Assembly: GCA_030765065.1 (NCBI GenBank)
Contig: CM060986.1
Coordinates: forward strand, 136,245,142-136,309,141
DNA: 64,000 nucleotides
Source of the DNA: Deroplatys truncata
Taxonomy: Eukaryota; Arthropoda; Insecta; Mantodea; Mantidae
Direction: 5' to 3'
The notes below the pieces were generated by a model. The model ran no database searches and was not told where the DNA came from. It saw only the letters and a program-made list of their open reading frames with translations. Of this stretch, positions 2,455 through 49,289 are shown one piece after another; the stretch's first letter is position 1, and every line of letters starts with the position of its first letter. The position numbers and the translations under genes were made by a program.

Positions 2455-2850
2455 TGAGACTCCCTTAATACAAAACAATCGCATTTTTGGAAAAACACCA
2501 AACTTGGTATTTAAGTTCAACATCTTCCAAGGATGCGACACGACGATTTTCAAGAAAATCCTCGAACACCAAAGTACCATTTACATCGAAAACTTTTCGA
2601 ACACTTTGATTTTCTCAGAAATAGCCTTGACGACTTTGATTATAATACCATATCTTTAAGATATTTTCATGACAACCGAAATATATATTTTCCATTTTCT
2701 GGAAATGGCCTCTGAAGTCCTCTTTTGTATAATTGGTAAACCGTAAGACATAGACAAACTACTACAAAATGTACGCCTCGTTAATGGTGTCAAATAATTA
2801 TTTGAAATATAATTATTTGTGTAAAATAATGTTGTGATGACAAATACATT
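2455..2850 (-). repeat. A-element, partial old copy
   Basis: Minus-strand A-element interior, from the segment just before the microsatellite to the region around ACATAAATTGTG. Both termini are missing and divergence is high. The two open frames here are chance frames across the repeat. Confidence 0.65.
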
Positions 2851-2934
2851 CATAACTAGATAAATTTAAAACAGAATGAAACTTTATTTGTGAAGTTTAA
2901 ATCAGTTCCTTCATATTGTACAGAGAATACAGTG

Positions 2935-3600
2935 TGTTCGGAAATTCCCTTTGCAAACTTTTAGGACTTGTAGAGGAGACTGGGTAGATCATGTTTTGAA
3001 TAGGAACCCATGTCCGGAAACGTACCACTTCTGTGCTATAACAATTTCAAGTCGGTTTGCCTGGTATGCAACCGGCTAGTCACGACGAGCGGTGTTTACG
3101 TCAGACGAGCAGCTGATGTCATTTGACCTCTAGCCTCGTTTGAGCCTGTGGAGTCAGATCCTGTAGAATCAGAGGATGAAATTTTGGCATGAATTGTGGT
3201 AGCTGCACAACAAATTGAAGAAATACGAGGAGTGATGGACAGACTTTACCAGAACATCATTCCAAGGTACAATGAGAGCAACAACTTTAGTGGTCGTCAC
3301 ATCGAGCCGGAGTTGTAGCTGACCAGAATGCCAACCAACCTGTGACGAAGTGAAATATAGATTGTTCAGTGTAACCGTAAACAAAAGGGTTTGTGAAAAT
3401 TGATTAAGATTCCTGTTTATTTCTTTAATAATATTACTTAATGAGTTTAATTGTAAGAAAAGTGATGTACTGACTAAAGTACATAAGCAAACGTGGTCAC
3501 TTTGAACACCTGTTTTCAAATGGTTGTAGCACGGAAGCGGTACGTTAATAATCACACACTGTGGCAGGAATGTGTACAACACTTTAGATAAATCAGCAAC
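2935..3600 (+). mobile_element. Degenerate mariner-like element
   Basis: It opens with a TIR-like block (GTTCGGAAATTCCCTTTGCA) and holds the tail of a transposase frame at 3171-3318. Most of the transposase is deleted, leaving about 670 bp of a type normally about 1.3-1.6 kb. I could not define the right terminus. Confidence 0.4.
3171..3318 (+). pseudogene. Tc1/mariner transposase C-terminal remnant
   Basis: A short frame contains AAQQIEEIRGVMDRL and later FSGRHIEPEL. This pattern matches the helical C-terminus of IS630/Tc1-mariner transposases, where an ACxxI..PG....V..S...R segment is followed by a final GxHFE(H/P)L. An in-frame stop (TGA) lies near its beginning and the DDE catalytic region is absent, so it cannot work. 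It is called from motif shape alone; a similarity search against transposases would settle it. Confidence 0.45.
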
Positions 3601-3839: not shown

Positions 3840-4110
3840 TCGTTTGCCACCCAAAGCGGTATACGGCTGGCATTCGGGAAGTCGTAGATTCAAATCTCAT
3901 GTACCGTCCAATCTGATTAGAGCTTTTACATCATTGCCGTCAGTCAGTATGCTGATTTGGATTCACAAAGTTATAGCTGCAGATAGAAGAAATAGAAATA
4001 AGGAAGGAGGTACAGGAAATTACCATGTAGTCATGGCCATCTGCAGATGGCACAGGAAGACTTCGCAACTAAAAACATATGTCCGGCATCACTGACTACG
4101 TGTTTCTAAA
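3840..4110 (+). repeat. Possible tRNA-derived SINE
   Basis: GTAGATTCAAATCTC at about 3884 resembles a Pol III B box, with a possible degenerate A box about 35 bp upstream. The following body is open on the plus strand, as in other SINE bodies. The ends are not defined. Confidence 0.3.
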
Positions 4111-4293
4111 ACATATGTTTTCAATCATAATTCCATTACTTCAAAAGTCAGACTTTCAAGCAATAGGAAATAAACAGACAGCACAGGAATGAGATTATGC
4201 AATTAAGGCTAAATATCAACAAAATTACTGAGGCAGGTGGTACAGGAAGGTGACTAGCAACTAGGGTCAGTATCTAGCACATCTCTAATAATT

Positions 4294-5075
4294 CAGTAGA
4301 ACCCACTACTCTGACCTCACCGGGACCAGGAGCATGGTCGGAACACATAAAAGGTCGGGTTATCAGAGGAACACTTTTATTTACGCAAAAACGTGATACA
4401 CAGACAATGTTTACATAACTGAAAATGTTTTTGACAGTATTACACATTATGAAGTAAAAATATTATAAAAAGTCAATACTCATGCCTTGCGTACCTGTAC
4501 TCCAACTGAAAGGACTTATGGCGGACGAAAACGTCTGTAATGTTCGTTTGTTTAGCAGCTGACAACCTTACTTTACTGTGATGTTTCTCCATTTTTGTAT
4601 CCACAATACACCCATTGGTATGGAAAAGGCGTTTTCTTCAATGTATTGAAGAGCTGTGTCAAATGCCTGCTTAGAGTCTGCGTGCGATACTCGGGAACTA
4701 GCTCATCGTCATCTTTCTCTCTCTGTCGTCTGTAGCCTGGGTGACGGCAGCAATGATTTGGTCGTCATATACTTCTGCTTCTGTCGTGCAGTCATCATCG
4801 GCCGTCTTGATCCATTGGGCTAAACATCAGGATTCCAAAGTCTGCAAATGTTTAAAATTGCTGGTGTGTGCAAGTCTTCATTTTCGTGGCCTTCTTCTTG
4901 TTATTTGACCTTGATTTTTACCTCTTTCATTAATTTTCGACTAAGTTTGCGCAGGAAATGAAACAGGGCAGGTGCAGACACGATTGGAGTAAGACGTAAA
5001 CAATGAGAAATGTCGGCATGGTCGGGCCAAGCGGGGAGTCGGACCATCAAAGGTCGGATTAACGGCGTTCTAATC
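4294..5075 (-). mobile_element. Degenerate pogo/Tigger-like DNA transposon
   Basis: The left end begins CAGTAGAACCC and continues into GGTCGGGTTATCAGAGG; the right end, read on the other strand, gives TAGAACGCCGTTAATCCGAC. Such CAGTAGAAC termini followed by repeated 'GGTCGG' steps are characteristic of pogo/Tigger elements. Only about 780 bp remain. A transposase tail lies inside on the minus strand. Confidence 0.6.
4570..4860 (-). pseudogene. Tigger-like transposase C-terminal remnant
   Basis: On the minus strand a frame reads SKQAFDTALQYIEENAFS followed by a short stretch with WIQKWRNI. This is the tail of Tigger/pogo transposases (A..AL...L.ylEq......d.l.l.r.rd.a). Upstream in the same strand is an acidic, Thr/Glu-rich stretch, also usual just before that tail. 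The HTH DNA-binding domain and DDE catalytic core are missing and there are stops. The TIR-like ends on both sides support the call. Confidence 0.6.
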
Positions 5076-10055: not shown

Positions 10056-10468
10056 TATAAATAATTGAAATTAAGTATACTTTTTGCAGACCTTACAAGT
10101 TTTTAGTAGAATCAACTGAAAAATTCAATACCACAGCCGGGATTTGAATACGGTTCTCCCGCTCTCCGTGCGGTTGCTCTAACCATTGAGATACTGTGAT
10201 AACATGCCCGTGGGACATTGAATTCCCCAATTGACTCAAGTTGTTTCCCAGAAAGACCACCAACGCATCTCACTCGAGATGACATAAAAAAAACTTTAAA
10301 CTTTATGAAAGCGACAAAATTGTATAATAATGTATAGCACACTTATCTAGAGAATTTAATGTTATATGTACTATTACTGTTTAATACATTGTATTTTCAT
10401 TGTATTCATGTTCTGTATTCTAAATTAGTCGCGATATGATTTATAGTTGAAGCGACAATAAAGAATAC

Positions 10469-11057: not shown

Positions 11058-11236
11058 CTGATGTGTTACACTCACATGACTTTCTCTACTCTTGTACAAA
11101 CTATTTTTACAAACGCTTATTCTCCATCTACTTCATGTTAATCAGGATAAAGATTTGCAGACTCTATCTTATTGCTAATTTTCTTGTAGATGTAAGGGGA
11201 AAATATATTTACAAGGGCAATATAGATAAAAAAAAT

Positions 11237-12096
11237 CTGATGTGTTACACTCACATGACTTTCTCTACTCTTGTACAATCTATTTTTACAAACGCCTATT
11301 CTCCATATGCTTTATGTTAATCGAGATATCGAGATGTCAATCTTATTGCTAATTTTCTTGTAGATGCAAGGGTAATATGGTAGCTTTTAAGCGATGGTCA
11401 AATATTTTAACGCTGGTTGCTATGCGGCGCATTCCATTCTCTTTGCAAGTCCAGGACATAAAAAAATGAATAACGAATTTGAGAAAAAGTATAAGTATTG
11501 GAAAATTTAAGGGAATAACAAGCAATATCTCGAAAACGGTTCACTCAACAAAAGAAATGTATATGACATAAGTTGTGTATTTTAACGAGATCTACATTTT
11601 TCGTGTAGTAAAATTTTGTCTATCTCTTATGGTTTACCAGTTATGCAAAAGTCGTTCACAATGAAGAATACTTTTGGAGACATTCCCAGAAAATTCGAGA
11701 TATACATTTCATTTCTCATGACATTATCTTAAACATATGATATTTTAATCAAAATCGTTAGAGCCATTTTTGAGAAAATTAAAATTTTCGAAAAATCTTC
11801 CATGTAAAGGGTAGTCTGGGGTGGGGGGATTTTCTTGAAAACCTTCGTGTCGCATCTCTGGAAGATACTGAACCTAAATACCAAGTTTGGTGCTTATCCG
11901 ACTGTTCGTTTTTGAGTTATGCTGTTCACAGACACACAGACACACACACACACAGACACACACACGGACATGTTTCCAAAAATGCTTTTTTTGGATTCAG
12001 GAGGTCTCAAAACATGTATTTCCGGTGAAATCTCGGTATCGAATTTTTGGGTGGAATGCAATACTTCCCCTACTTACTATACGTAGTAGAGAAAGT
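11237..12096 (+). mobile_element. A-element, complete young-type copy
   Basis: All family landmarks are present: the 5' hairpin, ACTTTCTCTAC, the body, the CACACAGACACA microsatellite at about 11932-11965, and the 3' palindrome ACTATACGTAGT followed by AGAGAAAGT. It entered the host in an A-run; the host resumes at ACCCTTTAAGCACAT. Confidence 0.85.
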
Positions 12097-12747
12097 AAAA
12101 ACCCTTTAAGCACATACATATCTCTTAATAGCTGGTTGCTAGGTGCAGCACCATTCCCTTTGCCACAGATTATAACTCTTTGCATATCCAAGACAAAAAA
12201 ATGAATAACGAATGCCCATTTTAGAAAATAAGTATTGACAAATTTAAGGGAATAACAAGCAATATTTCGAAAATGGTTCACTCAGCAAAAAAAATGTATA
12301 TGACATAAATTGTGTATTTTAACCCGATCTACACTTTTTGTGTAGTAAAATTTTGTCTATCTCTTATCGTTTACGAGTTATGCAAAAGTCGTTCACAATA
12401 AAGAATACTTTTGGAGACATTCCCAGAAAATTCGAGATATACATTTTATTTATCATAAAAATATCTTAAACATATGATATTTTAATCAAAATATCTTAAA
12501 CATATGATATTTTAATCAAAATCGTTAGAGCCATTTTTGAGAAAATTAAAATTTTCGAAAAATGTTCCATGTAAAGGGTACTCGGGGTGGGGGGATTTTC
12601 TTGAAAACCTTCGTGTCGCATCCTTGGAAGATACTGAACCTAAATACCAAGTTTGGTGTTTATCCGACTGTTCGTTTCTGAGTTATGCTGTTCACAGACA
12701 CACAGACACAGACACACACACGGACATGTTTCCAAAAATGCTTTTTT

Positions 12748-14452
12748 ACTTTCTCTACTACGTATAGTAAGTAGGGGAAGTATTGTATTCCACCCAAAAA
12801 TTCGATACCGAGATTTCACCGGAAATATATGTTTTGAGACCCCCTGAATCCAAAAAAAGCATTTTTGGAAACATGTCCGTCTGTGTGTCTGTGTGTCTGT
12901 GTGTCTGTGAACAGCATAACTCAGAAACGAACAGTCGTATAAACACCAAACTTGGTATTTAGGTTCAGTATCTTCCAGAGATGCGACACGAAGGTTTTCA
13001 AGAAAATCCCCCCACCCCGAGTACCCTTTACATGGAACATTTTTCGAAAATTTTAATTTTCTCGAAAATGGCTCTAACGATTTTGATTAAAATATCATAT
13101 GTTTAAGATATTGTCATGAGAAATCAAACGTATATCTCGAATTTTTTGGGAATGTCTCCAAAAGTATTCTTCATTGTGAACGACTTTTGCATAACTCGTA
13201 AACCATAAGAGATAGACAAAATGTTACTACACAAAAAATGTAGATCGCGTTAAAATACACAATTTATGTCATGTACACTTTTTCTGTTGATTGAACGATT
13301 TTCGAGATATTGCTTGTTCCCTTAAATTTTCCAATACTTATGCTTTTTCTCAAATTCGTTATTTATTTTTACTTTCTCTACTACGTATAGTAAGTAGGGG
13401 AAGTATTGCATTCCACCCAAAAATTCGATACCGAGATTTCACCGGAAATACATGTTTTGAGACCTCCTGAATCCAAAAAATGCATTTTTGGAAACATGTC
13501 CATGTGTGTGTCTGTCTGTGTGTCTGTGAACAGCATAACTCAAAAACGAACAGTCGGATAAGCACCAAACTTGGTATTTAGGTTCAGTATCTTCCAGAGA
13601 TGCGACACAAAGGTTTTGAAGAAAATCCCCCCACTCCAGACTACCCTTTACATGGAAGATTTTTCGAAAATTTTAATTTTCTCAAAAATGGCTCTAACGA
13701 TTTTGATGAAAATATCATATGTTTAAGATAATGTCATGAGAAATGAAATGTATATCTCGAATTTTCTGGGAATGTCTCCAAACGTATTCTTCATTGTGAA
13801 CGACTTTTGCATAACTGGTAAACCATAAGAGATAGACAAAATTTTACTACACAACAAATGTAGATCGCGTTAAAATACACAACTTATGTCATATACATTT
13901 CTTTTGTTGAGTGAACCGTTTTCGTGATATTGCTTGTTATTTCCTTAAATTTTCCAAAACTTATACTTTTTCTCAAATTCGTTATTCATTTTTTTTATGT
14001 GCTGGACATGCAAAGAGAATGGAATGCGCCACATAGCAACCAGCGTTAAAATATTTGACTATCGCTTAAAAGCTACCATATTTCCGTTGCATCTACAAGA
14101 AAATTACCAATAAGATTGACATCTCAATATCTCGATTAACATGAAGCATATGGAGAATAGGCGTTTGTAAAAATAGTGTGTACAAGAGTAGAGAAAGTCA
14201 TGTGAGTGTAACACATCAGATTTTTTTTTATGTCCTGGACATGCAAAGAGAATGGAATGCGCCACATAGCAACCAGCGTTAAAATATTTGACTATCGCTT
14301 AAAAGCTACCATATTTCCCTTGCATCTACGAGAAAATTAGCAATAAGATTGACATCTCGATATCTCGATTAACATGAAGCATACGGAGAATAAGCGTTTG
14401 TAAAAATAGTTTGTACAACAGTAGAGAATGTCATGTGAGTGTAACACATCAG
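12748..14452 (-). mobile_element. A-element in reverse orientation, split by another copy
   Basis: Minus-strand copy in two parts, 12748-13370 and 14220-14452. It entered the host just after CCAAAAATG, a recurrent insertion site. Because it faces the host's 5' part, 12100-12747 and 12748-13370 form an imperfect palindrome with arms of about 620 bp. Confidence 0.8.
13371..14219 (-). mobile_element. A-element, complete young copy, innermost of the nest
   Basis: Reads from CTGATGTGTTACACTCACAT to GAGAAAGT on the minus strand. Its host resumes on the far side at TATGTCCTGGACATGC, so the insertion point was the A-run before TGAATAACG, the second recurrent site. Confidence 0.85.
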
Positions 14453-14562
14453 ATTGTTTTGATTAAGGTGTCTCAAAACATGTATTTCCGGTGAAATCTC
14501 GGTATCGAATTTTTGGGTGGAATACAATACTTCCCCTACTTACTATACGTAGTAGAGAAAGT

Positions 14563-33466: not shown

Positions 33467-33514
33467 TAAAATGTATCTATCAGCCATACGGACAAAAAGA
33501 GCATTTTTCGATCA

Positions 33515-33812
33515 ATGGCACCAGGTAGTGTAATACTGATACTCAAATCTAATAAAAACTATAGAGCATCTGATATTAATATTAAATGGATGGAGAAAGT
33601 ATACAGTTTAGTGGTAGAGGCAAAAATGATGTACGATATTGAAATATGGGGATTAGACGGAGGAGGAGAAAGTATAGATGAGGGGCATAGGATGTTTTGT
33701 AAAGAAATTCTAGGGCTACCAAATGCAGTTGCAAGACCGGTAGCTCAAATAGAAATGGGCAGGGCGGCAAGCAACGGAAAGATAATGGAAAGAGCATTGA
33801 AATATGTGGTTT
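33515..33812 (+). pseudogene. LINE reverse-transcriptase tail, left half
   Basis: The frame contains WMEKVYSLVVEAKMMYDIEI followed by WGLDGG and, later, GHRMFCKEILGLPNAVARPV and a short ELGR-like segment. This is the region just after the reverse-transcriptase domain in non-LTR elements (thumb: l..yGsE.WG ... FCK..LGlp...). It stops at 33812 where the 6-bp target duplication of the giant element begins; the rest of the protein continues at 45244. This disrupted LINE therefore dates and brackets the giant insertion. Confidence 0.75.
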
Positions 33813-33818
33813 GGGATC
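33813..33818. repeat. 6-bp target-site duplication, left
   Basis: GGGATC, repeated at 45238-45243 directly outside the other end of the giant inverted-repeat element. Confidence 0.9.
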
Positions 33819-34140
33819 AGTAGTAATAGTCCCGGATGAGTCAATTGGATTAACGATAATCCTGCCGCTAGGGGCGCTAGTGTCGCTAGTGTCGCTGCGT
33901 GCGACGGCGGCGGCAAGTTTGAAAAGCGCCCTGAGCGGAAGGATTATCGTTATTGCAATTGGTTCATCCGGGACGAGTTAAAAGAATTGAGGATTAGGGT
34001 AAGATGAAGGAAAAACAGGAAGTGACGTGGAGTGTTTTGATTGGTAAAAATAAGACGAAATGTGCTTGATTCGTTAATTCGGGTGGAAGAAGAAGGAAGG
34101 AAGATGAAAGAGTATGGAGGACACGTGATGGAGCGGAGCG

Positions 34141-34376
34141 GTGTGGCGAGGTGTTGTGTGTGCGGAGGTTGGGACTGAAAGAGGGAAAAGATGGCGAACG
34201 AGGGATAAAAAGTATAACAGAAAGTGACGTGTGAAGTTGTGATTGGTGGGAATAAGAAGTGATGTTATTGGTGGAAAGGAACAAATGAAAGTTGTTGATT
34301 GGTAAGAATAAGAGAGATTATGATTGGTGGAAAGAAAAAGGTGTGGGAGTGGGGTATGTTGGAGGTGATGGGAAAG
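34141..34376 (-). promoter_or_regulatory. Promoter-like module, left arm, distal copy
   Basis: On the minus strand: several ACCAATCA (CCAAT-box-like) motifs, CACGTCACTTTC, then TTATACTTTTTATCC resembling a TATA box, then a CT-rich leader. It points outward to the left end. It repeats the module at 35270-35513. Promoter activity is inferred from motif order. Confidence 0.45.
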
Positions 34377-34489
34377 GTAAGTTTTACTAGCAACAAGATT
34401 TGCAAAAGCCTGTCGAGAACTGATCAGCAATTTTTGAACGTTGGATGGTAGTTTTCTTGAGTGCATAGAGAGATGGGGCGATATGAGAT

Positions 34490-34790
34490 GCGGTTGCGAA
34501 AATGGGAACTAAACAAGATGGTTGAGACAAGAGGTTTAAGGACGAGGAAATTTCGAGGTTAGTGGTGAACATGGCGGTCGCAAGAGGTGGGGGCAAGGAG
34601 ACGCGGTGGTGAGAATGGGAACTAAAAGAAGATGGCGGTAGCAAGAGCTTAGAAGAGCAGATTTTGAGGTTAAAATAGTGGGAACTAAAAATGGCGGAGG
34701 GTCTGCGACAAGGAGATGCGGTGAGAACTAAACAAGATGGCGGACGCAAGAGGAGGGTAAGGAGACTTGAGGTTACAGTACCAAAACACG
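34490..34790 (+). promoter_or_regulatory. Cluster of AAGATGGCGG (YY1/Pho-like) motifs
   Basis: Variants of AAGATGGCGG occur at about 34515, 34570, 34630, 34690 and 34735, usually preceded by TGGGAACTAAA, and again at 34190, 35250 and 35325. The core matches the known YY1/Pleiohomeotic site. The same cluster is mirrored in the right arm at about 44260-44560. Confidence 0.45.
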
Positions 34791-34909
34791 AAAGAATATA
34801 TTCCTACGCCAAGCAGGCCCGAAAAATAATTATGCGTGTGGTACTTACCTGTTACTGGTGTGGATGCGTCACCAAAAGCGCAGCAGCTTCACGCGACGCG
34901 AAAAAATAA
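34691..34909 (+). CDS. Small open frame in the arm, doubtful
   Basis: A 72-codon basic frame, conserved without change in the other arm at 44147-44365 on the minus strand. Conservation is expected simply because the arms are near-identical, so it is no evidence of selection. The second half (YSYAKQARKIIMRVVLTCYW) is not low-complexity, but the opposite strand carries a strong splice-donor-like sequence here. I do not recognise a family; more likely not a gene. Confidence 0.15.
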   Translation: MAEGLRQGDAVRTKQDGGRKRRVRRLEVTVPKHERIYSYAKQARKIIMRVVLTCYWCGCVTKSAAASRDAKK

Positions 34910-34961
34910 AAGCAAACTGTTTTTGAAAATGCTTAACCAGCTTTAAGATCAACCAACATCA

Positions 34962-35261
34962 CTACGCACTGATATAAATAGGTTTTTTAAAGCGGTACAG
35001 ACGCCCTTTGCACAGACGTAATTTAACTATACCAAAAACCTGGTACTGGACCATCGTAATGGTCGCTAGCGTACGTAGGAGCAGGGTTCTCATAGCCGGT
35101 CGAAAGCGGTCAAAAAAGTGTACGACATAGGTGTTCACAGTAGCTGCTGTCGAGTCAACCGTCGAGGTGTGAATGAACGAGATCTGTTCTTGCCGGCAAT
35201 CTGGTTCGGAGATGAGAGGCGCGGTGGTAAAAATGGGAACTAAATAAGATGGCGGAGGCAT
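34962..35261 (-). CDS. Possible 99-residue protein behind the proximal arm promoter
   Basis: The start at 35261 is chosen because it lies just downstream of the promoter-like module at 35270-35513; the open frame itself extends further to 35420. Its second half is balanced and protein-like (VNTYVVHFFDRFRPAMRTLL, then a basic KGRLYRFKKP tail). The equivalent frame in the right arm has a stop at its sixth codon (near 43810) but is otherwise the same. No family recognised. Orientation is outward, toward the left end of the element. Codon use shows no strong GC3 bias, so coding status is uncertain. Confidence 0.3.
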   Translation of the reverse strand: MPPPSYLVPIFTTAPLISEPDCRQEQISFIHTSTVDSTAATVNTYVVHFFDRFRPAMRTLLLRTLATITMVQYQVFGIVKLRLCKGRLYRFKKPIYISA

Positions 35262-35269
35262 GAAGTTGA

Positions 35270-35513
35270 GGTTAAGGAGCGGTGAGGTGTTGTCTGTGCG
35301 GAGGTTGGGACTGAAAGAGGGAAAAGATGGCGAACGAGGGATAAAAAGTATAACAGAAAGTGACGTGTGAAGTTGTGATTGGTGGGAATAAGAAGTGATG
35401 TTATTGGTGGAAAGGAACAAATGAAAGATGTTGATTGGTAAGAATAAGAGAGATTATGATTGGTGGAAAGAAAAAAGGTGTGGGAGTGGGGTATGTTGGA
35501 GGTGATGAAAAAG
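35270..35513 (-). promoter_or_regulatory. Promoter-like module, left arm, proximal copy
   Basis: Minus strand: repeated ACCAATCA motifs, TTATACTTTTTATCC, then a CT-rich leader leading into the open frame that starts at 35261. On the other strand AAG|GTAAGT (35511-35519) is a consensus splice donor. Confidence 0.45.
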
Positions 35514-35714
35514 GTAAGTTTTGCTACCAACAAGATTTGCAAAAGCCTATACAGAATTCATCAGCAATTTTAAATAACTAGTGTTTCGGGGTTTTCTCTG
35601 GTTGGTAGACGAATGCAACCTGTTTCTGCTTTTTCATAGGTTTTCCCAAAATTGAAAATGCATATATATTGTAACACAAATGTGTGCAGTGCAAAAGAAA
35701 ATAAAAATTAAATA

Positions 35715-35743
35715 GGCACACACACACACACACACACACACAC
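35715..35743. repeat. (CA)n microsatellite in the left arm
   Basis: About 14 CA units; the right arm has about half as many at 43327-43340, the clearest length difference between the arms. Confidence 0.9.
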
Positions 35744-36150
35744 CCGTTACAGTTGCCATACTTATATTATTCGTCTTTTCCCTTTCTTCTTTTTTTCTTT
35801 TTGTTTCTTCGTTTGTTTTAAAAAATAACTAGTTTTTCGGGGTTTTCTGTGCTTGGTAAACGAATGCAAGCTCTTTCTGCTTTTTCATAGGTTTTCCCTG
35901 GTTGGTAGGCGTTTGCTGTAGTGGTTGACGAAGCCCTTTCTAATTTTCGAGGTTTTTCAGGTTTTTCGTGGTTGTCCCTGCCCGGTAGGCAAATGATGAA
36001 GTTTTTTCTTGTCGGCGCACGGATACTAGGCACATACTCGCGCACACACACACTATAATAGTAGCGTATAAAAAATTTAACAAACAAAATCTACACAATG
36101 ACAAAATTGAAAATGTATATATATTTTAACACAAAAGTGTGCAGTGCAAA

Positions 36151-37336
36151 CGATTTTCTAGCCCCTAGTGAGTGTAAAATTGCGTTTATTTCACTTCTTT
36201 CAAACTGCTTAAAAATCATATAAATGGTTGTTTCACGTTATAATAAGCCTATATATACCAAGAATACTGAGTTTTTAAAAAGTCAAGAAATTCGATTTTC
36301 TAGCTCCTAGTGAGTGTAAAATCGTGTTTACTTCACTTCTTTCAAACTGCTTAAAATTCATATAAATGGATGTATCACCTCATAATAAGCCTCTATATAC
36401 CAAGAATATTGAGTTTTTAAAAAGTCAAGAAAATCGATTTTCTAGCCCCTAGTGAGTGTAAAATCGCGTTTACTTCACTTCTTTCAAACTGCTTAAAAAT
36501 CATATAAATGAATGTATCACCTCATAATAAGCCTCTATATACCAAAAATACTGAGTTTTTAAAAAGTCAACAAAATGGATTTTCTAGCCCCTAGTGAGTG
36601 TAAAATCGCGTTTACTTCACTTCTTTCAAACTGCTTAAAAATCATATAAATGAATGTATCACCTCATAATAAGCCTCTATATACCAAGAATATTGAGTTT
36701 TTAAAACGTCAAGAAAATCGATTTTCTAGCCCCTAGCGAGTGTAAAATCGCGTTTACTTCACTTCTTTCAAACTGCTTAAAAATCATATAAATGAATGAA
36801 TCACCTCATAATAAGCCTCTATATACCAAAAATACTGAGTATTCAAAAAGTCAAGAACATCGATTTTCTAGCCCCTAGTGAGTGTAAAATCGCGTTTACT
36901 TCACTTCTTTCAAACTTCGAAAAAATCATATAAATGGTTGTTTTACGTTATAATAAGCCTATATATACCAAGAATACTGAGTTTTTAAAGTCAAGAAATT
37001 CGAATTTCTAGCTGCTAGTGAGTGTAAAATCGCGTTTACTTCACTTCTTTCAAACTGCTTAAAATTCATATAAATGGATGTATCACCTCATAATAAGCCT
37101 CTATATACCAAAAATACTGAGTATTCAAAAAGTCAAGAAAATCGATTTTCTAGCCCCTAGTGAGTGTAAAATCGTGTTTACTTCACTTCTTTCAAACTGC
37201 TTAAAAATCATATAAATGGTTGTTTCACGTTATAATAAGCCTATATACCAAGTATACTGAGTTTTTAAAAAGTCAAGAAATTCGATTTTCTAGCTGCCAG
37301 TGAGTGTAAAATCGCGTTTACTTCACTTCTTTTTTC
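36151..37336 (+). repeat. 142-bp tandem array, left (about 8 units)
   Basis: Units start at 36151, 36293, 36435, 36577, 36719, 36861, 37001, 37143 and 37283, spacing 142 bp with two units of 140. Each contains CTAGCCCCTAGTGAGTGTAA and TTCACTTCTTTCAAACTGCT. Two or three monomer types differ at fixed positions (CCTCATAATAAGCCTC versus CGTTATAATAAGCCTA). Confidence 0.92.
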
Positions 37337-37531
37337 ATCCAATCACCTTTGATTTTATTTTCGCCTATCACATCACGTTATTTCAATTTGTCCACCTATC
37401 AGAGATCGCCTTATTTTCACCAATCACAACGTTTCACGTCACTACTTGTTCTACTTTTTAACCCTCGGTCGTGCATGTTTTGTGTCCTTGAGTTTCCATA
37501 CCTCGCACACGCAACACCACAGCGCGATAAC
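37337..37531 (+). promoter_or_regulatory. Interior promoter-like module
   Basis: Has the same motif order as the arm modules: CCAATCACC, ACCAATCACAACG, TTTCACGTCACT, then TTCTACTTTTTAACCCTCGG, then a leader of about 75 bp and an ATG at 37532. Shared architecture with the arms suggests a real element promoter. Confidence 0.5.
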
Positions 37532-37724
37532 ATGTCCACGTGCAAGCTGGTGTACCGGTACGATCGCCTCCTGGGCCTGCTCAACGCCGAGGAAGGGGTA
37601 GTGCAGACCTGCGTACCCGTGACGAACCAGGTCATGTACGTGGTGTTGAGGTAACTCCGAGGAGAGCCCCAAGGTGATCCACGCTACCAATGCCGTGATT
37701 GCGGCTTACACCACGGCACACTAG
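37532..37724 (+). pseudogene. GC3-rich coding remnant of the giant element
   Basis: From the ATG at 37532 the frame runs 40 codons to a stop at 37652, beginning MSTCKLVYRYDRLLGLLN. Third codon positions are almost all G or C, in sharp contrast to the AT-rich surroundings, which is a strong coding signal. The same bias continues in the +1 frame from 37656 to a stop at 37722 (23 codons), so there is a one-base frame change or a splice at the AG|GTAACT at about 37649. It sits directly behind the interior promoter module and is cut off by the 76-bp array. Polinton or large-virus genes are candidates, but I recognise no family. Confidence 0.5.
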
Positions 37725-37754
37725 TGCCTAGTGTTATTTTGTCACCTGAACCGA

Positions 37755-39076
37755 AAGGTCTCCGTGGACACGTATCGAAGCTGCAATCTGCCGTTCACGT
37801 ATAGAAACAGAGGTACAGTTGCCTAGCACTAAGGTCTCCGTGGACACGTAGCGAAGCTGCCATCTGACGTTCACGTATAGAAACACAGGTGCAGTTGCCT
37901 AGCACTAAGGTCTCCGTGAACACGTATCGAAGCTGCAATCTGCCGTTGACGTATAGAAACAGGTATAGTTGCCTAGCACTAAGATCTCCGTGGAAACGTA
38001 TCGAAGCTACAATCTGCCGTTCACGTATAGAAACAGAGGTGCAGTTGCCTAGCACTAAGGTCTCCGTGGACACGTATCGAAGCTGCAATCTGCCGTTCAC
38101 GTATAGAAAAAGAGGTACAGTTGCCTAGCACTAAGGTCTCCGTGGACACGTATCGAAGCTGCAATCTGCCGTTCACGTATAGAAACAGAGGTGCAGTTGC
38201 CTAGCACTAAGGTCTCCGTGGATACGTATCGAAGCTGCAATCTGCCGTTCACGTATAGAAACAGAGGTGCCGTTGCCTAGCACTAAGGTCTCCGTGGACA
38301 CGTATCGAAGCTGCAATCTGCCGTTCACGTATAGAAACAGAGGTATAATTGCCTAGCACTAAGGTCTCCGTGGACACGTATCGAAGCTGCAATCTGCCGT
38401 TCACGTATAGAAACAGAGGTACAGTTGCCTAGCACTAAGGTCTCCGTGGACACGTATTGAAGCTGCAATCTGCCGTTCACGTATAGAAACAGAGGTGGAG
38501 TTGCCTAGCACTAAGGTCTCCGTGGATACGTATCGAAGCTGCAATCTGCCGTTCACGTATAGAAACAGAGGTGCAGTTGCCTAGCACTAAGGTCTCCGTG
38601 GACACGTATCGAAGCTGCAATCTGCCGTTCACATATAGAAACAGAGGTACAGTTGCCTAGCACTAAGGTCTCCGTGGACACGTATCAAAGCTGCAATCTG
38701 CCGTTCACGTATAGAAACAGAGGTGCAGTTGCCTAGCACTAAGGTCTCCGTGGACACGTATCGAAGCTGCAATCTACCGTTCACGTATAGAAACAGAGGT
38801 GCAGTTGCCTAGCACAAAGGTCTCCGTGGACACGTATCGAAGCTGCAATCTGCCGTTCACGTATAGAAACAGAGGTACAGTTGCCTAGCACTAAGGTCTC
38901 CGTGGACACGTATCGAAGCTGCCATCTGACGTTCACGTACAGAAACACAGGTACAGTTGCCTAGCATTAAGGTCTCCGTGGACACGTATCGAAGGTGCAA
39001 TCTGCCGTTCACGTATAGAAACAGGTATAGTTGCCTAGCACTAAGATCTCCGTGGACACGTATCGAAGCTGCAATC
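37755..39076 (+). repeat. 76-bp tandem array (about 17 copies)
   Basis: Unit AAGGTCTCCGTGGACACGTA continuing with TCGAAGCTGCAATCTGCCGT and GTATAGAAACAGAGGTGCAG. Spacing is 76 bp with a few units of 74. Copies are very homogeneous, differing at one or two positions, so it was amplified recently. 76 is not a multiple of 3, so open frames across it rotate and are not genes. Confidence 0.95.
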
Positions 39077-39210
39077 AAAATCGTTACAGCCATTTTTGAG
39101 AAAATTAAAATTTTCGAAAAATCTTCCATGTAAAGGGTAGTCTGGGGTGGGGGGATTTTCTTGAAAACCTTCGTGTCGCATCGCTGGAAGATACTAAACC
39201 TAGACACCCG
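39077..39210 (+). repeat. A-element internal fragment fused to the 76-bp array
   Basis: Begins within AATCAAAATCGTTACAGCCA; the last array unit ends GCTGCAATC, so AATC is shared at the junction. Continues to GGAAGATACTAAACCTAGAC. Confidence 0.75.
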
Positions 39211-39272
39211 CACATGTGCGCGTATTGCTCTAAAACTTATATTACGTCAAATAGCACGATTTTATAGAAAAA

Positions 39273-40109
39273 CTGATGTGTTACACTCACATGACTTTCT
39301 TTACTCTTGTACAAACTATTTTTACAAACGCTTATTCTCCATCTACTTCATGTTAATCGAGATATCGAAATGTCAATCTTATTGCTAATTTTCTTGTAGA
39401 TGCAAGGGGAACATGTTAGGTTATAAGCGATAGTCAAATCTTTTAAGCGCTGTTTGCTATGTGGCGCATTCTATTCTGTTTGCATATCCAGAACATAAAA
39501 AATTGAATAACGAATTTGAGAAAAAGTATAAGTATTGGAAAATTTAAGGAAATAACAAGCAATATCTCGAAAATGGTTCACTCAACTAAAAAAATGTATA
39601 TGACATAAATTGTGTATTTTAACGCGATCTACATTTTTTGGTAGTAAAATTTTGTCCATCTCTTATGGTTTACCAGTTATGCAAACGTCGTTCACAATAA
39701 AGAATACTTTTGGACACATTCCCAGGAAATTCGAGATATACATTTCATTTGTCTTGAAAGTATCTTGAACATATGATATTTTAATCAAAATCGTTAGAAC
39801 CATTTTTGAGAAAATTAAAATTTTCGAAAAATGTTCCATGTAAAGGGTTGTCTGGGTGGGGGGGATTTTCTTGGAAACGTTCGTGTCGCATCTCTGGAAG
39901 ATACTGAACCTAAATACCAAGTTTGGTGCTTATCCGACTTCGTTTCTGAGTTATGCTGTTCACAGACACACACACACGGACATGTTTCTAAAAATGGATT
40001 TTTTTGGATTCAGGGGGTGTCAAAACATGTATTTCCGGTGAAATCTCGGTATCGAATTTTTGGGTGGAATACAATACTTCCCCTACTTACTATACGTAGT
40101 AGAGAAAGT
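39273..40109 (+). mobile_element. A-element, complete young copy inside the giant element
   Basis: From CTGATGTGTTACACTCACAT to GTAGTAGAGAAAGT, with a short CACACACACA microsatellite at about 39967. Inserted after the giant element formed. Confidence 0.85.
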
Positions 40110-40192
40110 AAAAAACAAAACTAGAAACGTAAAACGCCTGACCCGTTATAGGATGTATCAGAAATAAAGCATTTCCCCGGAGTAATTATTGT

Positions 40193-40585
40193 TTGCATTA
40201 CCAAAAGTTAAAGGAAATGAAACAAGGATTTAAACCGCAGTTTCAGCGTGCGCGTCGAGTTAAATGCCTCATTAAAACTCCTGACGCCTTATTTCGCCAC
40301 AAATTGTCAAGTTGTAAACGTAGTCATTTGCTGTGCATTTCCGCTCACCATCAACCGCTGCACTTTTCCCTACCATCGAGCATAAAACTGCATTTAAAAG
40401 ATTTTATCGCTGACGAGCATCCGTTTCTCACGGTCATTTTTCACACACTTGAACCGCGTCAGCATATAGTAACACACATCAGCAAACGGTCTTTTCACGC
40501 AGTGCTGCACATGAGAATGCTTCTTTTTACTGTTTTCTCCGATACTAAAGTGAGCAGAACTGTAACGCTTGCTACCTGTTGTTAA
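40193..40585 (+). CDS. Unidentified 130-codon open frame
   Basis: The longest open frame in the window outside repeated DNA. It opens MHYQKLKEMKQGFKPQFQRA and is rich in His, Ser and Leu, with no recognised domain, signal peptide or membrane segment. It lies in the single-copy centre of the giant element, between the young A-element and the right 142-bp array. No promoter-like module precedes it closely. The opposite strand also carries a 71-codon frame, so chance cannot be excluded. If the giant element encodes anything beyond the GC3-rich remnant, this is the place, but coding status is weak. Confidence 0.25.
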   Translation: MHYQKLKEMKQGFKPQFQRARRVKCLIKTPDALFRHKLSSCKRSHLLCISAHHQPLHFSLPSSIKLHLKDFIADEHPFLTVIFHTLEPRQHIVTHISKRSFHAVLHMRMLLFTVFSDTKVSRTVTLATCC

Positions 40586-40756
40586 TAGTGGTTCAGTTTG
40601 CACCCCCACCAGTGCAATATTTAAAACAATGAGTGTCGTGTGTAGTGTTTTTGTGTTGTGCCGTGCATACGTGTTATGTAAAATGTAAGAATTAAATAGA
40701 ATCAGCAGATACTTCCTTTCTAAGGAGTAACACCAACTGCAGAATAAAAAATTCTC

Positions 40757-40807
40757 AAGTGTTACGTTCGTATGACCTCTACCCTCTATCTCTTATAGGT
40801 GAGTACG
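40757..40807 (+). repeat. A-element 5' end fragment
   Basis: GTGTTACGTTCGTATGACCT then CTACCCTCTATCTCTTATAG, the old-type 5' end, cut off by the start of the right 142-bp array. Confidence 0.6.
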
Positions 40808-42921
40808 AAAAAAACTCAGTATTTTTGGTATATGAAGGCTTATTATGACGTGAAACAACCATTTATATGACTTTTTCGAAGTTTGAAAGAAGTGAAGTAA
40901 ACGCGATTTTACACTCACTAGCAGCTAGAAAATCGAATTTCTTGACTTTTTAGAAACTCAGTATTCTTGGTATATATAGGCTTATTATAACGTGAAACAA
41001 CCATTTATATGATTTTTTCGAAGTTTGAAAGAAGTGAAGTAAACGCGATTTTACACTCACTAGGGGCTAGAAAATCGATTTTCTTGACTTTTTGAATACT
41101 CAGTATTTTTGGTATATAGAGGCTTATTATGAGGTGATACATTCATTTATATGATTTTTAAGCAGTTTGAAAAAAGTGAAGTAAACGCGATTTTACACTC
41201 GCTAGGGCCTAGAAAATCGATTTTCTTGACTTTTTAAAAACTCAATATTCTTGGTATATAGAGGCTTATTATGACGTGATACATCCATTTATATGAATTT
41301 TAAGCAGTTTGAAAGAAGTGAAGTAAACGCGATTTTACACTCACTAGCAGCTAGAAAATCGAATTTCTTGACTTATTAAAAACTCAGTATTCTTGGTATA
41401 TATAGGCTTATTAAACGTGAAACAACCATTTATATGATTTTTTCGAAGTTTGAAAGAAGTGAAGTAAACGCGATTTTACACTCACTAGGGGCTAGAAAAT
41501 CGATTTTCTTGACTTTTTGACTACTCAATATTTTTGGTATATAGAGGCTTATTATGAGGTGATATATTCATTTATATGATTTTTAAGTAGTTTGAAAGAA
41601 GTGAAGTAAACGCGATTTTACACTCGCTAGGGGCTAGAAAATCGATTTTCTTGACTTCTTAAAAACTCAATATTCTTGGTATATAGAGGCTTATTATGAG
41701 GTGATACATCCATTTATATGAATTTTAAGCAGTTTGAAAGAAGTGAAGTAAACACGATTTTACACTCACTAGGGGCTAGAAAATCGGTTTTCTTGACTTT
41801 TTGAATACTCAGTATTTTTGGTATATAGAGGCTTATTATGAGGTGAAACAACCATTTATATGATTTTTAAGCAGTTTGAAAGAAGTGAAGTAAACGCGAT
41901 TTTACACTCGCTAGGGGCTAGAAAATCGATTTTCTTGACTTTTTAAAAACTCAATATTCTTGGTATATAGAGGCTTATTATGAGGTGATACATCCATTTA
42001 TATGAATTTTAAGCAGTTTCAAAGAAGTGAAGTAAACGCGATTTTACACTCACTAGCAGCTAGAAAATCGAATTTCTTGACTTTTTAAAAACTCAGTATT
42101 CTTGGTATATATAGGCTTATTATAACGTGAAACAACCATTTATATGATTTTTTCGAAGTTTGAAAGAAGTGAAGTAAACGCGATTTTACACTCACTAGGG
42201 GCTAGAAAATCGATTTTCTTGACTTTTTGAATACTCAGTATTTTTGGTATATAGAGGCTTATTATGAGGTGATACATTCATTTATATGATTTTTAAGCAG
42301 TTTGAAAGAAGTGAAGTAAACGCGATTTTACACTCGCTAGGGGCTAGAAAATCGATTTTCTTGACTTTTTAAAAACTCAATATTCTTGGTATATAGAGGC
42401 TTATTATGAGGTGATACATCCATTTATATGAATTTTAAGCAGTTTCAAAGAAGTGAAGTAAACGCGATTTTACACTCACTAGCAGCTAGAAAATCGAATT
42501 TCTTGACTTCTTAAGAACTCAGTATTCTTGGTATATATAGGCTTATTATAACGTGAAACAACCATTTATATGATTTTTAAGCAGTTTGAAAGAAGTGAAG
42601 TAAACACGATTTTACACTCACTAGGGGCTAGAAAATCGATTTTCTTGACTTTTTGAATACTCAGTATTTTTGGTATATAGAGGCTTATTATGAGGTGATA
42701 CATTCATTTATATGATTTTTAAGCAGTTTGAAAGAAGTGAAGTAAACGCGATTTTACACTCACTAGGGGCTAGAAAATCGATTTTCTTGACTTTTTAAAA
42801 ACTCAGTATTCTTGGTATATATAGGCTTATTATAACGTGAAACAACCATTTATATGATTTTTAAGCAGTTTGAAAGAAGTGAAATAAACGCAATTTTACA
42901 CTCACTAGGGGCTAGAAAATC
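40808..42921 (-). repeat. 142-bp tandem array, right (about 15 units), higher-order
   Basis: Inverted relative to the left array. Three monomer types recur in order for at least part of the array, e.g. one with CAGCTAG/TTTTTCGAAG, one with GAGGTGATACATTC, one with GATACATCCATTTATATGAA, giving an approximate 426-bp higher-order period. Roughly twice the length of the left array. Confidence 0.9.
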
Positions 42922-45237
42922 GTTTGCACTTCACACTTTTGTGTTAAAATATATATATACATTTTCAATTTTGTCATTGTGTAGATTTTGTTTGTTAAAT
43001 TTTTTATACGCTACTATTATAGTGTGTGTGTGTGCGCGCGAGTATGTGCCTAGTATCCCTGCGCCGACAAAAAAAACTTCATCATTTGCCTACCGGGCAG
43101 GGACAACCACGAAAAACCTGAAAACCTCGAAAATTAGAAAGGGCTTCGTCAACCACTACAGCAAACGCCTACCAACCAGGGAAAACCTATGAAAAAGCAG
43201 AAAGAGCTTGCATTCGTTTACCAACCACAGAAGAGCCCGAAAAACTAGTTATTTTTTAAAAACACGAAAAAACAAAAAGAAAAAAAGGAAAAGACGAATA
43301 ATATAAGTATGGCAACTGTAACGGGTGTGTGTGTGTGCGCCTATTTAATTTTTATTTTCTTTTGCACTGCACACATTTGTGTTACAATATATATGCATTT
43401 TCAATTTTGGGAAAACCTATGAAAAAACAGAAACAGCTTGCATTCGTCTACCAACCAGAGAAAACCCCGAAACACTAGTTATTTAAAATTGCTGATGATT
43501 TCTGGATAGGCTTTTGCAAATCTTGTTGGTAGCAAAACTTACCTTTTTCATCACCTCCAACATACCCCACTCCCACACCTTTTTTCTTTCCACCAATCAT
43601 AATCTCTCTTATTCTTACCAATCAACATCTTTCATTTGTTCCTTTCCACCAATAACTTCACTTCTTATTCCCACCAATCACAACTTCACACGTCTCTTTC
43701 TGTTATACTTTTTATCCCTCGTTCGCCATCTTTTCCCTCTTTCAGTCCCAACCTCCGCACAGACAACACCTCACCGCTCCTTAACCTCAACTTCATGCCT
43801 CCGCCATCTTAATTAGTTCCCATTTTTACCACCGCGCCTCTCATCTCCGAACCAGATTGCCGGCAAGAACAGATCTCGTTCATTCACACCTCGACGGTTG
43901 ACTCGACAGCAGCTACTGTGAACACCTACGTCGTACACTTTTTTGACCGCTTTCGACCGGCTATGAGAACCCTGCTCCTACGTACGCTAGCGACCATTAC
44001 GATGGTCCAGTACCAGGTTTTTGGTATAGTTAAATTACGTCTGTGCAAAGGGCGTCTGTACCGCTTTAAAAAACCTAGGTATATCAGTGCGTAGTGATGT
44101 TGGTTGATCTTAAAGCTGGTTAAGCATTTTCAAAAACAGTTTGCTTTTATTTTTTCGCGTCGCGTGAAGCTGCTGCGCTTTTGGTGACGCATCCACACCA
44201 GTAACAGGTAAGTACCACACGCATAATTATTTTTCGGGCCTGCTTGGCGTAGGAATATATTCTTTCGTGTTTTGGTACTGTAACCTCAAGTCTCCTTACC
44301 CTCCTCTTGCGTCCGCCATCTTGTTTAGTTCTCACCGCATCTCCTTGTCGCAGACCCTCCGCCATTTTTAGTTCCCACTATTTTAACCTCAAAATCTGCT
44401 CTTCTAAGCTCTTGCTACCGCCATCTTCTTTTAGTTCCCATTCTCACCACCGCGTCTCCTTGCCCCCACCTCTTGCGACCGCCATGTTCACCACTAACCT
44501 CGAAATTTCCTCGTCCTTAAACCTCTTGTCTCAACCATCTTGTTTAGTTCCCATTTTCGCAACCGCATCTCATATCGCCCCATCTCTCTATCCACTCAAG
44601 AAAACTACCATCCAACGTTCAAAAATTGCTGATCAGTTCTCGACAGGCTTTTGCAAATCTTGTTGCTAGCAAAACTTACCTTTCCCATCACCTCCAACAT
44701 ACCCCACTCCCACACCTTTTTCTTTCCACCAATCATAATCTCTCTTATTCTTACCAATCAACAACTTTCATTTGTTCCTTTCCACCAATAACATCACTTC
44801 TTATTCCCACCAATCACAACTTCACACGTCACTTTCTGTTATACTTTTTATCCCTCGTTCGCCATCTTTTCCCTCTTTCAGTCCCAACCTCCGCACACAC
44901 AACACGTCGCCACACCGCTCCCCTCCATCACGTGTCCTCCATACTCTTTCATCTTCCTTCCTTCTTCTTCCACCCGAATTAACGAACCAAGCACATTTCG
45001 TCTTATTTTTACCAATCAAAACACTCCACGTCACTTCCTGTTTTTCCTTCATCTTACCCTAATCCTCAATTCTTTTAACTCGTCCCGGATGAACCAATTG
45101 CAATAACGATAATCCTTCCGCTCAGGGCGCTTTTCAAACTTGCCGCCGCCGTCGCACGCAGCGACACTAGCGACACTAGCGCCCCTAGCGGCAGGATTAT
45201 CGTTAATCCAATTGGCTCATCCGGGACTATTACTACT
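42922..45237 (-). repeat. Giant element, right outer arm
   Basis: Mirror of 33819-36150. Includes the promoter-like modules at 43555-43790 and 44695-44915 pointing right (outward), the AAGATGGCGG cluster, a CAG|GTAAGT splice-donor match at 44215-44223, and the GC-rich last 170 bp ending TATTACTACT. Differences from the left arm are few: single substitutions (one creating a stop near 43810) and a shorter CA run. Confidence 0.9.
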
Positions 45238-45243
45238 GGGATC
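45238..45243. repeat. 6-bp target-site duplication, right
   Basis: GGGATC, identical to 33813-33818. Confidence 0.9.
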
Positions 45244-47682: not shown

Positions 47683-48167
47683 AGAGTGGCTCACATAAAT
47701 TTTTACAGGCGAATATCTCTTAAATGAACACAAAAACCCCAAAATCAAGAATTCCAAATCTTATAGAAGCAAAGACAGCTCCAAGTTGTGATATGGAAAA
47801 TATTTCCATGGTGCCCCTTATGGGACACATGGGTAAAACCTCAGAATTTTAAATGAACACATAATATTTATTTTATTTTGGTTTCCTTCGATAAACTGAG
47901 CAACTTTTATTAAAAGCTTTTCTTTCTAAAATTAATTGTTGAGCTCTTATAGGACGTTTTCATTGAAGTTGTTTCATCTCATGAACTCGGGGAGGAAATA
48001 AAGTATTACATGAAATAACATGGGTATTGTGGTTTCAAAGCCACCTGAACACTTAAAATACAACACTGTATGTGGTTAGTCATGTTGATTATTCCTGTGG
48101 CTCTTCAAAAATAAAAAATATGATGTGTTACACATACATGACTTTCTCTACTCTTGTACAAACTATT

Positions 48168-49010
48168 ACTTTCTCTACTACGTATAGTAAGTAGGGGAAG
48201 TATTGTATTCCACCCAAAAATTCGATACCGAGATTTCACCGGAAATACATGTTTTGAGACTCACTGAATCCAAAAAAAGCATTTTTGGAAACATGTCCGT
48301 GTGTGTGTCTGTCTGTGTGTCTGTGTCTGAACAGCATAACTCAGAAACGAACCGTCGTATAAACACCAAACTTGGTATTTAGGTTCAGTATCTTCCAGAG
48401 ATGCGAAACGGAGTTTTCAAGAAAATCCCCCCACCCCAGACTACCCTTTACATGGAACATTTTTCGAAAATTTTAATTTTCTCAAAAATGGCTCTAACGA
48501 TTTTGATTAAAATATCATATGTTTAAGATATTGTCATGAGAAATGAAATGTATATCTCGAATTTTCTGAGAATGTCTCCAAAAGTATTCTTCATTGTGAA
48601 CGACTTTTGCATAACTGGTAAACCATAAGAGATAGACAAAATTTTACTACACAAAAATGTAGATCGCGTTAAAATACACAATTTATGTCATACACATTTT
48701 TTTTGTTGAGTGAACCGTTTTCGAGATATTGCTTGTTATTCCCTTAAATTTTCCAATACATATACTTTTTCTCAAATTCGTTATTGTTTTTTTTTACGTC
48801 CTGGACATGCAAAGAGAATGGAATGCGCCACATAGCAACCAGCGTTGAAATATTTGACTATTTTTTTAAACCTAGCATATTCCCCTTGCATCTACATGAA
48901 AATTACCAATAAGATTGACATCTCGATTAACATGAAGCATATGGAGAATAAGCGTTTGTAAAAATAGTTTGTACAAGAGTAGAGAAAGTCATGTGAGTGT
49001 AACACATCAG
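48168..49010 (-). mobile_element. A-element, complete young copy
   Basis: Minus-strand copy with all landmarks; its 3' end abuts the host tip and its 5' end sits in the A-run of the segment at 49011-49289. Confidence 0.85.
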
Positions 49011-49289
49011 ATTTTTTTTGTCTTGGATATGCAAAGAGTTATAATCTGTGGCAAAGAGAATGGTGCTGCACCTAGCAACCAGTTATTAAGAGATATGTAT
49101 GTGCTTAAAGGCTACTGTTTTTCTATATTGCCCTTGTAAATATATTTTCCCCTACATCTACAAGAAAATTAGCAATAAGATAGAGTTTGCAAATGTTTAT
49201 CTCGATTAACATGAAGTAGATGGAGAATAAGCGTTTGTAAAAATACTTTGTACAAGAGTAGAGAAAGTCATGTGAGTGTAACACATCAG
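49011..49289 (-). mobile_element. A-element 5' segment joined to a full copy
   Basis: Minus-strand 5' third, from CTGATGTGTTACACTCACAT to the A-run after TATCCAAGAC. The remaining two thirds are not present on the far side of the copy at 48168-49010. Confidence 0.75.

Follow-up and report, generated by a model that had tools for sequence, protein, structure and literature searches.

In the mantis Deroplatys truncata, a stretch of 64,000 nucleotides (hereafter the window; C12:136245142-136309141 in an assembly of 4.29 Gb and 818 contigs) contains a long inverted-repeat element at positions 33819-45237. What is this element, and where did it get its form? The initial annotation of the window suggested two possibilities: a Polinton derivative that is non-autonomous, or an element of a new class. 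The Polinton half of this proposal was right: the element's ends, its arm, and its 6-bp target duplications are common to elements that encode pPolB and an integrase. We consider it likely that the element is a palindromic, non-autonomous derivative of a Polinton/Maverick, active or recently active, which originated by copy-back and was amplified in trans. It carries one end of its gene-bearing relatives on both sides, it is a member of an amplified family whose copies have one centre in common, and it has lost that centre in a private deletion.

An inverted repeat that integrated as one unit

The inverted arms of the element (33818-35731 and 43325-45238) are 99% complementary, and the inverted match reaches inward to 37332 on the left and to 41737 on the right. 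On the left, the flanking GGGATC is followed by AGTAGTAATAGTCCCGG; on the right, CCGGGACTATTACTACT is followed by another GGGATC. The termini thus read AGTAGT...ACTACT. We joined the flanks with a single GGGATC (353 nt) and compared this sequence to the genome. The match crossed the junction in all 40 of the genomic copies that were scored, with an identity of 89–92%. It follows that 33819-45237 integrated as one unit, and also that the DNA that was hit is a dispersed repeat.

The initial annotation had also argued for a single insertion, from the ends, the perfect GGGATC duplication, and a LINE (long interspersed nuclear element) protein that seemed to be split. The first two observations stand beside the joined-flank matches. 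As for the third, the interrupted DNA is indeed a dispersed repeat, but a LINE protein is unconfirmed, as the open reading frame (ORF) at the insertion site (33470-33823) has no match in Pfam.

Because long palindromes are prone to misassembly, the arrangement might be a false inverted duplication. However, when the first 2300 bp of the two arms are aligned, 27 of the 2277 sites compared are not identical, and the tandem arrays on the two sides have unequal lengths. Also, the inverted arrangement recurs at many places in the genome, each with different target duplications, and the target repeat is uninterrupted elsewhere. Given these arm differences, varied duplications, and uninterrupted target copies, all seen in the assembly sequence only, we reject an artefact as the general cause and consider it highly improbable.

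The ends and arm belong to gene-bearing Polintons

With the first 301 bp of the window arm as the query, we obtained 1766 first-look candidates across the genome, and the 40 scored places match at 97–100%. We then fetched 20 stretches (identified here by numbers such as L019), which represent ten further elements that share the window element's ends. Among these ten and the window element there are two kinds: gene-bearing elements with a left (L) and a right (R) end, and fold-back elements with the L end on both sides.

The L-R elements (L015/16, L019/20, L021/22, and L027/28) are ~18 kb each and asymmetric: the L end consists of a 2.3-kb arm and a 142-bp tandem array, and the R end shares only the last ~156 bp. 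The interiors of L015/16, L021/22, and L027/28 are colinear with L019/20 at about 95–99%. L017/18 has a colinear interior as well; no R end was found in the 20 kb that we fetched for it, and we left this element out of the counts of duplications.

We scanned pieces of L019 and L020 for genes. Positions 4764-8018 of L019 encode pPolB (DNA_pol_B_2 in Pfam, E = 2.9e-41; a PHROG DNA polymerase, 1e-29), which has no match in PDB at E ≤ 0.01. L020 encodes an integrase (167-1225; rve, 5.8e-14; Chromo, 4.5e-7; and integrases in PDB, best E = 2.1e-10) and an adenain/Ulp1-like cysteine protease (3871-4506), which matches S273R (E = 2.1e-5) and has no match in Pfam, PHROG, or NCBIfam. As a candidate for an FtsK/IVa2-type packaging ATPase, a P-loop motif is encoded at 8578-9120 of L019, with weak matches below the cut-off only (Adeno_IVa2, 0.036; RNA_helicase, 0.0057). 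Two ORFs of L020 (2651-3565 and 1189-2241), candidates for the double-jelly-roll major and minor capsid proteins, have no convincing family match; one of the candidates has no match in the phage collection or the viral contigs, and 2651-3565 has a single, chance-level match in PDB (E = 0.46). Within the pPolB ORF, at ~6930-7170 of L019 (residues 724-802), there is also a Vsr-like endonuclease match (PHROG endonuclease, 1.1e-5; NCBIfam vsr, 5.1e-4, which is below the cut-off).

The terminal inverted repeats of Polintons begin with AG. With pPolB, an rve integrase, an adenain/Ulp1-type protease, 6-bp duplications, AG ends, and a length of ~18 kb, the L-R elements are Polintons. A 6-bp duplication is described as characteristic of Polintons in PMC10045372, and a length of 15–20 kb is given in PMC4028283. 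The initial annotation had regarded the 6-bp duplications and AG ends of the window element as Polinton traits, and we see both in the gene-bearing relatives too. It had also proposed looking for a longer relative with the same ends and with pPolB, integrase, and capsid genes; pPolB and the integrase are there, but the capsid candidates lack a convincing match.

The link to the window element extends well beyond the ends. Positions 33819-37332 of the window are colinear with 501-4025 of L019 (96.7%), and 41661-45237 are colinear with 4101-501 of L019, in inverted orientation (95.2%). A further match, from 42070 to 40286, carries on to 4601 of L019. In L019 (2844-4101) as in the fold-backs, the inner edge of the L arm is occupied by the 142-bp array.

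The window element differs from these Polintons in that it is a palindrome of the L end, in that its arms measure several kb, where those Polintons have a terminal repeat of ~156 bp, and in that it has no recognized intact gene. Of 90 listed stop-to-stop ORFs, eight that belong to the element were scanned, and none of these has a Pfam match above the cut-off. We found no pPolB or integrase gene of its own, just a fragment of pPolB (Table 1), so it is a non-autonomous derivative and not an autonomous member. The initial annotation had reported that no core genes were visible, which is correct for intact genes but overlooked this fragment.

Could it instead be a fold-back element from another superfamily that merely resembles a Polinton? 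Fold-backs are commonly recognized by long inverted arms, internal tandem arrays, and an unrelated centre. In Drosophila FB, in Galileo, and in Mutator/foldback elements such as Tm1, the inverted arms are very long and contain tandem arrays, and the centre varies, much like in the window element. But FB, Galileo, and MULE fold-backs have 7–9-bp duplications and the ends of their own superfamilies, while the window element and its relatives have 6-bp duplications and Polinton ends. They also differ in the mobilizing enzymes: the window element is tied to elements with pPolB and an rve integrase, with which it shares the ends and the arm (95–97% over 3.5 kb). We therefore reject an unrelated superfamily, which has hardly any probability left.

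A family of palindromes with a common loop

Besides the window element, the fold-back (L-L) kind includes L009-11, L012/13, L014, L025/26, and L023/24, whose one arm is cut down. L009-11, L023/24, and L025/26 are palindromic all the way to a common centre, with near-perfect flanks around a loop of ~29 nt; L010, L023, and L025 have this loop in common. L012/13 has long mirrored halves and an asymmetric centre. Relatives with the loop are thus mirrored about an axis that is marked by this short loop, and the same end flanks them left and right, as a snap-back would leave it; in the window element, the axis is deleted. L014 might have been an independent fold-back with another centre, but an internal deletion of the common type explains it equally well, so we do not claim multiple origins.

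When at most 3 mismatches are allowed, a 35-mer from the loop has 828 genomic matches, and the reversed control has none. From 100 listed matches we picked 20 sites, of which 16 match perfectly and 4 have a single mismatch, and we retrieved 1 kb to either side. At least one half of the palindrome was present at all 20 sites, and both halves were mirrored for ~990 bp or more at 14 of them. At the other six (L037, L039, L042, L043, L048, and L053), one half is partly missing at or near the loop. These losses look as if the tip of a hairpin had been processed.

The centre of this lineage joins a pPolB piece (75–79% identical) to a reversed, diverged piece of the arm. A probe for the pPolB fragment gave 624 first-look candidates in the genome, and the 40 scored places match at 98–100%. 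A dispersed repeat has been captured in both halves of all four fold-backs with an inner half (L009-11, L012/13, L023/24, and L025/26), so the capture preceded the mirror duplication.

To count the family in another way, we used 26-mers from the ends, which have 4083 matches for the L end (as a pattern with two mismatches) and 1001 for the R end. This gives a rough total of ~1,400–1,550 L-L elements, although ~5 of 100 listed L matches are internal duplicates of one arm, and related subfamilies may be caught. The 828 loop matches are the firmer figure. Either way, the window copy is one member of an amplified, gene-less family with hundreds of copies in the genome.

Integration signature and pairing of ends

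Had other copies shown differing duplication lengths or indistinct ends, the initial annotation's view of the element would have failed. Instead, 20 of 26 L-L elements have exact 6-bp duplications; three have one mismatch, one has five mismatches, and for two, one end was not found. Among the L-R elements, 13 of 14 duplications are exact and the remaining one has one mismatch. These totals combine a first set of 10 complete elements (nine exact and one with one mismatch) with a further set of 20 L-L pairs (14 exact, three with one mismatch, one with five, and two with an end not found) and 10 L-R pairs (all exact). All of the ends that we located begin with AGTAGT or differ from it by one base, as do L022 and L081 with AATAGT; in L021/22, the exact duplication adjoins an R end with this changed base.

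We also asked how the ends are paired. For this we took the ends listed without a mismatch on C1 and in the first 211.6 Mb of C2; once internal duplicates had been merged, these comprised 77 L and 100 R ends. Within 30 kb, converging neighbours form 25 L-R pairs, 18 L-L pairs, and 1 R-R pair; there are no diverging pairs and three same-strand pairs. The L-R pairs cluster in their spacing (23 of 25 at 16.4–19.8 kb), whereas the L-L pairs spread from 2.1 to 21.8 kb. The sole R-R case, L054 (positions 1-2001; C2:178639500-178641500), turned out to be an L-R element in which the first 247 bp of L have been replaced by ~0.73 kb of R sequence. This replacement is best read as a template switch between ends. 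By eye, we found no R-R pairs among the 40 best R ends.

At many sites, the 6-bp duplications enclose an entire palindrome, so the palindromes replicate and integrate as units. This bears on a chromosomal origin, in which opposite Polintons recombined or an inverted duplication occurred, with the product being mobilized as a unit later on. Chromosomal fold-back inversions through hairpins are known, according to PMC7467729, and the centre does join rearranged and diverged Polinton pieces. On the other hand, the duplications flank whole palindromes at many sites, the two arms of one element resemble each other more, on average, than do arms of different elements (see below), and, bar the one end replacement, only L ends are mirrored among the sampled ends. 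We think that a chromosomal origin is distinctly unlikely.

Since mirroring is restricted to the L end, we suggest, by analogy, that L carries a needed cis signal. In adenoviruses, the packaging domain is at the left end.

Similarity of the two arms

Across 14 complete palindromes, arms of the same element are on average 97.96% identical, as compared to 96.61% between elements, and none of 10,000 random re-pairings reached the observed value. In the inner stretch, three of four elements have 99.2–99.9% identity within the element, versus 94.2–98.7% between elements. In the terminal stretch, identity within the element exceeds all comparisons between elements for the window element (99.35%), L012/13 (98.33%), and one pair of L014 (97.26%).

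The tips are matched more strictly. Among elements with both ends read, the variant at positions 8–9 is identical at both ends in 18 of 18 L-L and 10 of 10 L-R elements, which was reached by 0 and 51 of 20,000 shuffles, respectively. It is also identical in 14 of 14 elements of the L-R set that we used for position 148 (ten of them shared with the previous set). In contrast, position 148 differs between L and R in all 14. Tips that match while the inner repeat does not would fit either conversion of the tip alone or subfamilies whose tips are matched.

Ordinary chromosomal gene conversion after insertion, instead of a replication intermediate, might keep the arms alike. Long, close inverted repeats convert readily, and the similarity does vary among copies. 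However, the young-looking palindromes L050-L052 are near-identical throughout the halves that we examined (99.3–99.6% over 560 bp and 99.6–99.9% over 1 kb). Moreover, gene conversion accounts for the similarity of the arms only, and neither for the origin of the palindromes nor for their amplification. We view it as a possible but not a likely explanation.

Proposed origin of the palindromes

We propose that the palindrome arose during protein-primed, strand-displacement synthesis of a Polinton, when the strand being extended folded back on itself and used its 5' half as the template. The product would be a linear palindrome with a terminal-protein origin and an integrase-recognized end on both sides. 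Intact L-R relatives would supply pPolB and integrase in trans for its replication and integration, and displaced strands could fold into full-length hairpins, which would help to keep both arms alike. The terminal sequence of adenovirus offers a parallel for AGTAGT, a trinucleotide repeat that would serve jumping-back protein priming. Adenovirus uses jumping back for its priming, as stated in PMC3480470. As DNA, 33819-33980 is predicted to fold into one long hairpin (-55.3 kcal/mol, z = -12.0), and none of 200 shuffled sequences equalled it.

Several observations weigh against this proposal. For just 2 of the 14 complete palindromes, every between-element pair is less similar than the palindrome's own two arms (for the others, 1 to 23 of 52 pairs are at least as similar). 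The inner stretch of L009-11 is 96.96% identical within the element but up to 98.05% identical between elements; the terminal stretch of L025/26 is 98.26% identical within and up to 98.48% between; and near the centre, only one of three elements (L025/26) exceeds all of the between-element pairs. This uneven similarity implies that homogenization is partial or old in many copies, and the matching terminal variants could reflect subfamilies with matched ends. The L-L pair L058 lacks a matching duplication. A non-palindromic progenitor was seen at none of the 20 fetched loop sites, and no separate search for one was made. The diverged pPolB piece and the reversed arm piece in the centre imply that the lineage had an older or different Polinton as its source and was rearranged more than once. 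Finally, we saw neither an intermediate outside the chromosomes nor a terminal protein nor a transposition event.

Anatomy of the window element

The initial annotation had described the centre as satellite-like, which agrees with the 76-bp array and the two 142-bp arrays in Table 1. The left junction of the centre has a single match in the genome with up to 2 mismatches, so the deletion is private to the window copy, and we reject the idea that its asymmetric centre is the original form. The window copy lost its centre in this deletion, either later or at its last replication.

Table 1. Features of the element and its target site. Positions are those of the window; L010 and L019 are relatives described in the text.
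Feature	Position	Strand	Remarks
Target duplication GGGATC, left copy	33813..33818		Flank reading and joined-flank test
Terminal ~156 bp, left arm	33819..33974	+	Starts AGTAGT; common to parental L and R ends; imperfect palindrome
Left arm, ~2.3 kb	33819..36147	+	Parental left-end (L) sequence; purine-rich inward
142-bp tandem array, left	36151..37332	+	8.4 copies; array also in gene-bearing parent
Private deletion junction	37332..37333		Left inner half, central loop, and ~130 bp of right half gone
Surviving inner half of palindrome	37318..40286	+	Positions 132-2802 of the half seen in L010
pPolB fragment, diverged Polinton	37526..37750	+	75.6% nucleotide identity over 225 nt to L019 7905-8128
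76-bp tandem array	37755..39076		17.4 copies; within the fold-back lineage
Captured abundant dispersed repeat	39079..40115		Matching stretch in both halves of other fold-backs
Parental sequence between array and pPolB start, inverted	40286..40809	-	L019 4601 down to ~4102
142-bp tandem array, right	40810..42922	-	14.9 copies
Right arm	42923..45237	-	Parental left end, inverted; colinear with L019
Terminal ~156 bp, right arm	45082..45237	-	Left-arm terminal sequence, inverted
Target duplication GGGATC, right copy	45238..45243		Flank reading and joined-flank test

The captured repeat recurs throughout the window outside of the element, with 16 alignments of at least 500 bp and pieces that are up to 96% identical; examples are at 11232-12101 and 48166-49015. 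Two tandem copies of a 233-bp unit (13989-14460; 95% match) overlap copies of this repeat. On the minus strand at 10129-10200, there is a borderline transfer RNA match from Rfam (29.6 bits, with a cut-off of 29).

The stretch 33974-35600 and its mirror in the other arm are purine-rich inward (A 0.33, G 0.32, C 0.12, and T 0.23). This strand asymmetry may reflect the displacement of one strand during replication.

Relation to other replicons and implications

To our knowledge, Polinton replication has been inferred mostly from gene content. Among the literature matches listed, no palindromic, fold-back, or non-autonomous Polinton is described in a title or at the start of an abstract, with most subscription papers being outside of this scope.

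Other protein-primed linear replicons have palindromic or hairpin derivatives, such as SYREC of adenovirus and F2 of pGKL1. Like the L-L elements, these derivatives of pPolB-type replicons have lost genes and carry one end twice, in inverted order. They are extrachromosomal, whereas the L-L elements are integrated, with target duplications and hundreds of nuclear copies. The same likeness and difference seem to apply to a deletion derivative of the kalilo plasmid, as far as can be told from the title of Vierula and Bertrand (1992), as cited in PMC11071308.

We speculate, tentatively, that the L-L palindromes could be fossils of polintovirus genomes akin to defective interfering genomes. These would have formed by copy-back and kept a cis signal that only L provides, such as for packaging or for efficient use of the origin. 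As hyperparasites, they would then rival or outnumber their helpers.

The amplified palindromes with one end duplicated, their matched tips, their partial homogenization, and the end replacement form a sequence record, in a eukaryotic nuclear genome, that fits protein-primed replication with strand switching. They point to essential cis signals in the left end. They also show that a virus-like transposon can give rise to a large class of gene-less elements that spreads alongside it. Because they are long natural palindromes, they may be useful for studying the stability of palindromes and the responses to hairpin RNA and small RNAs.

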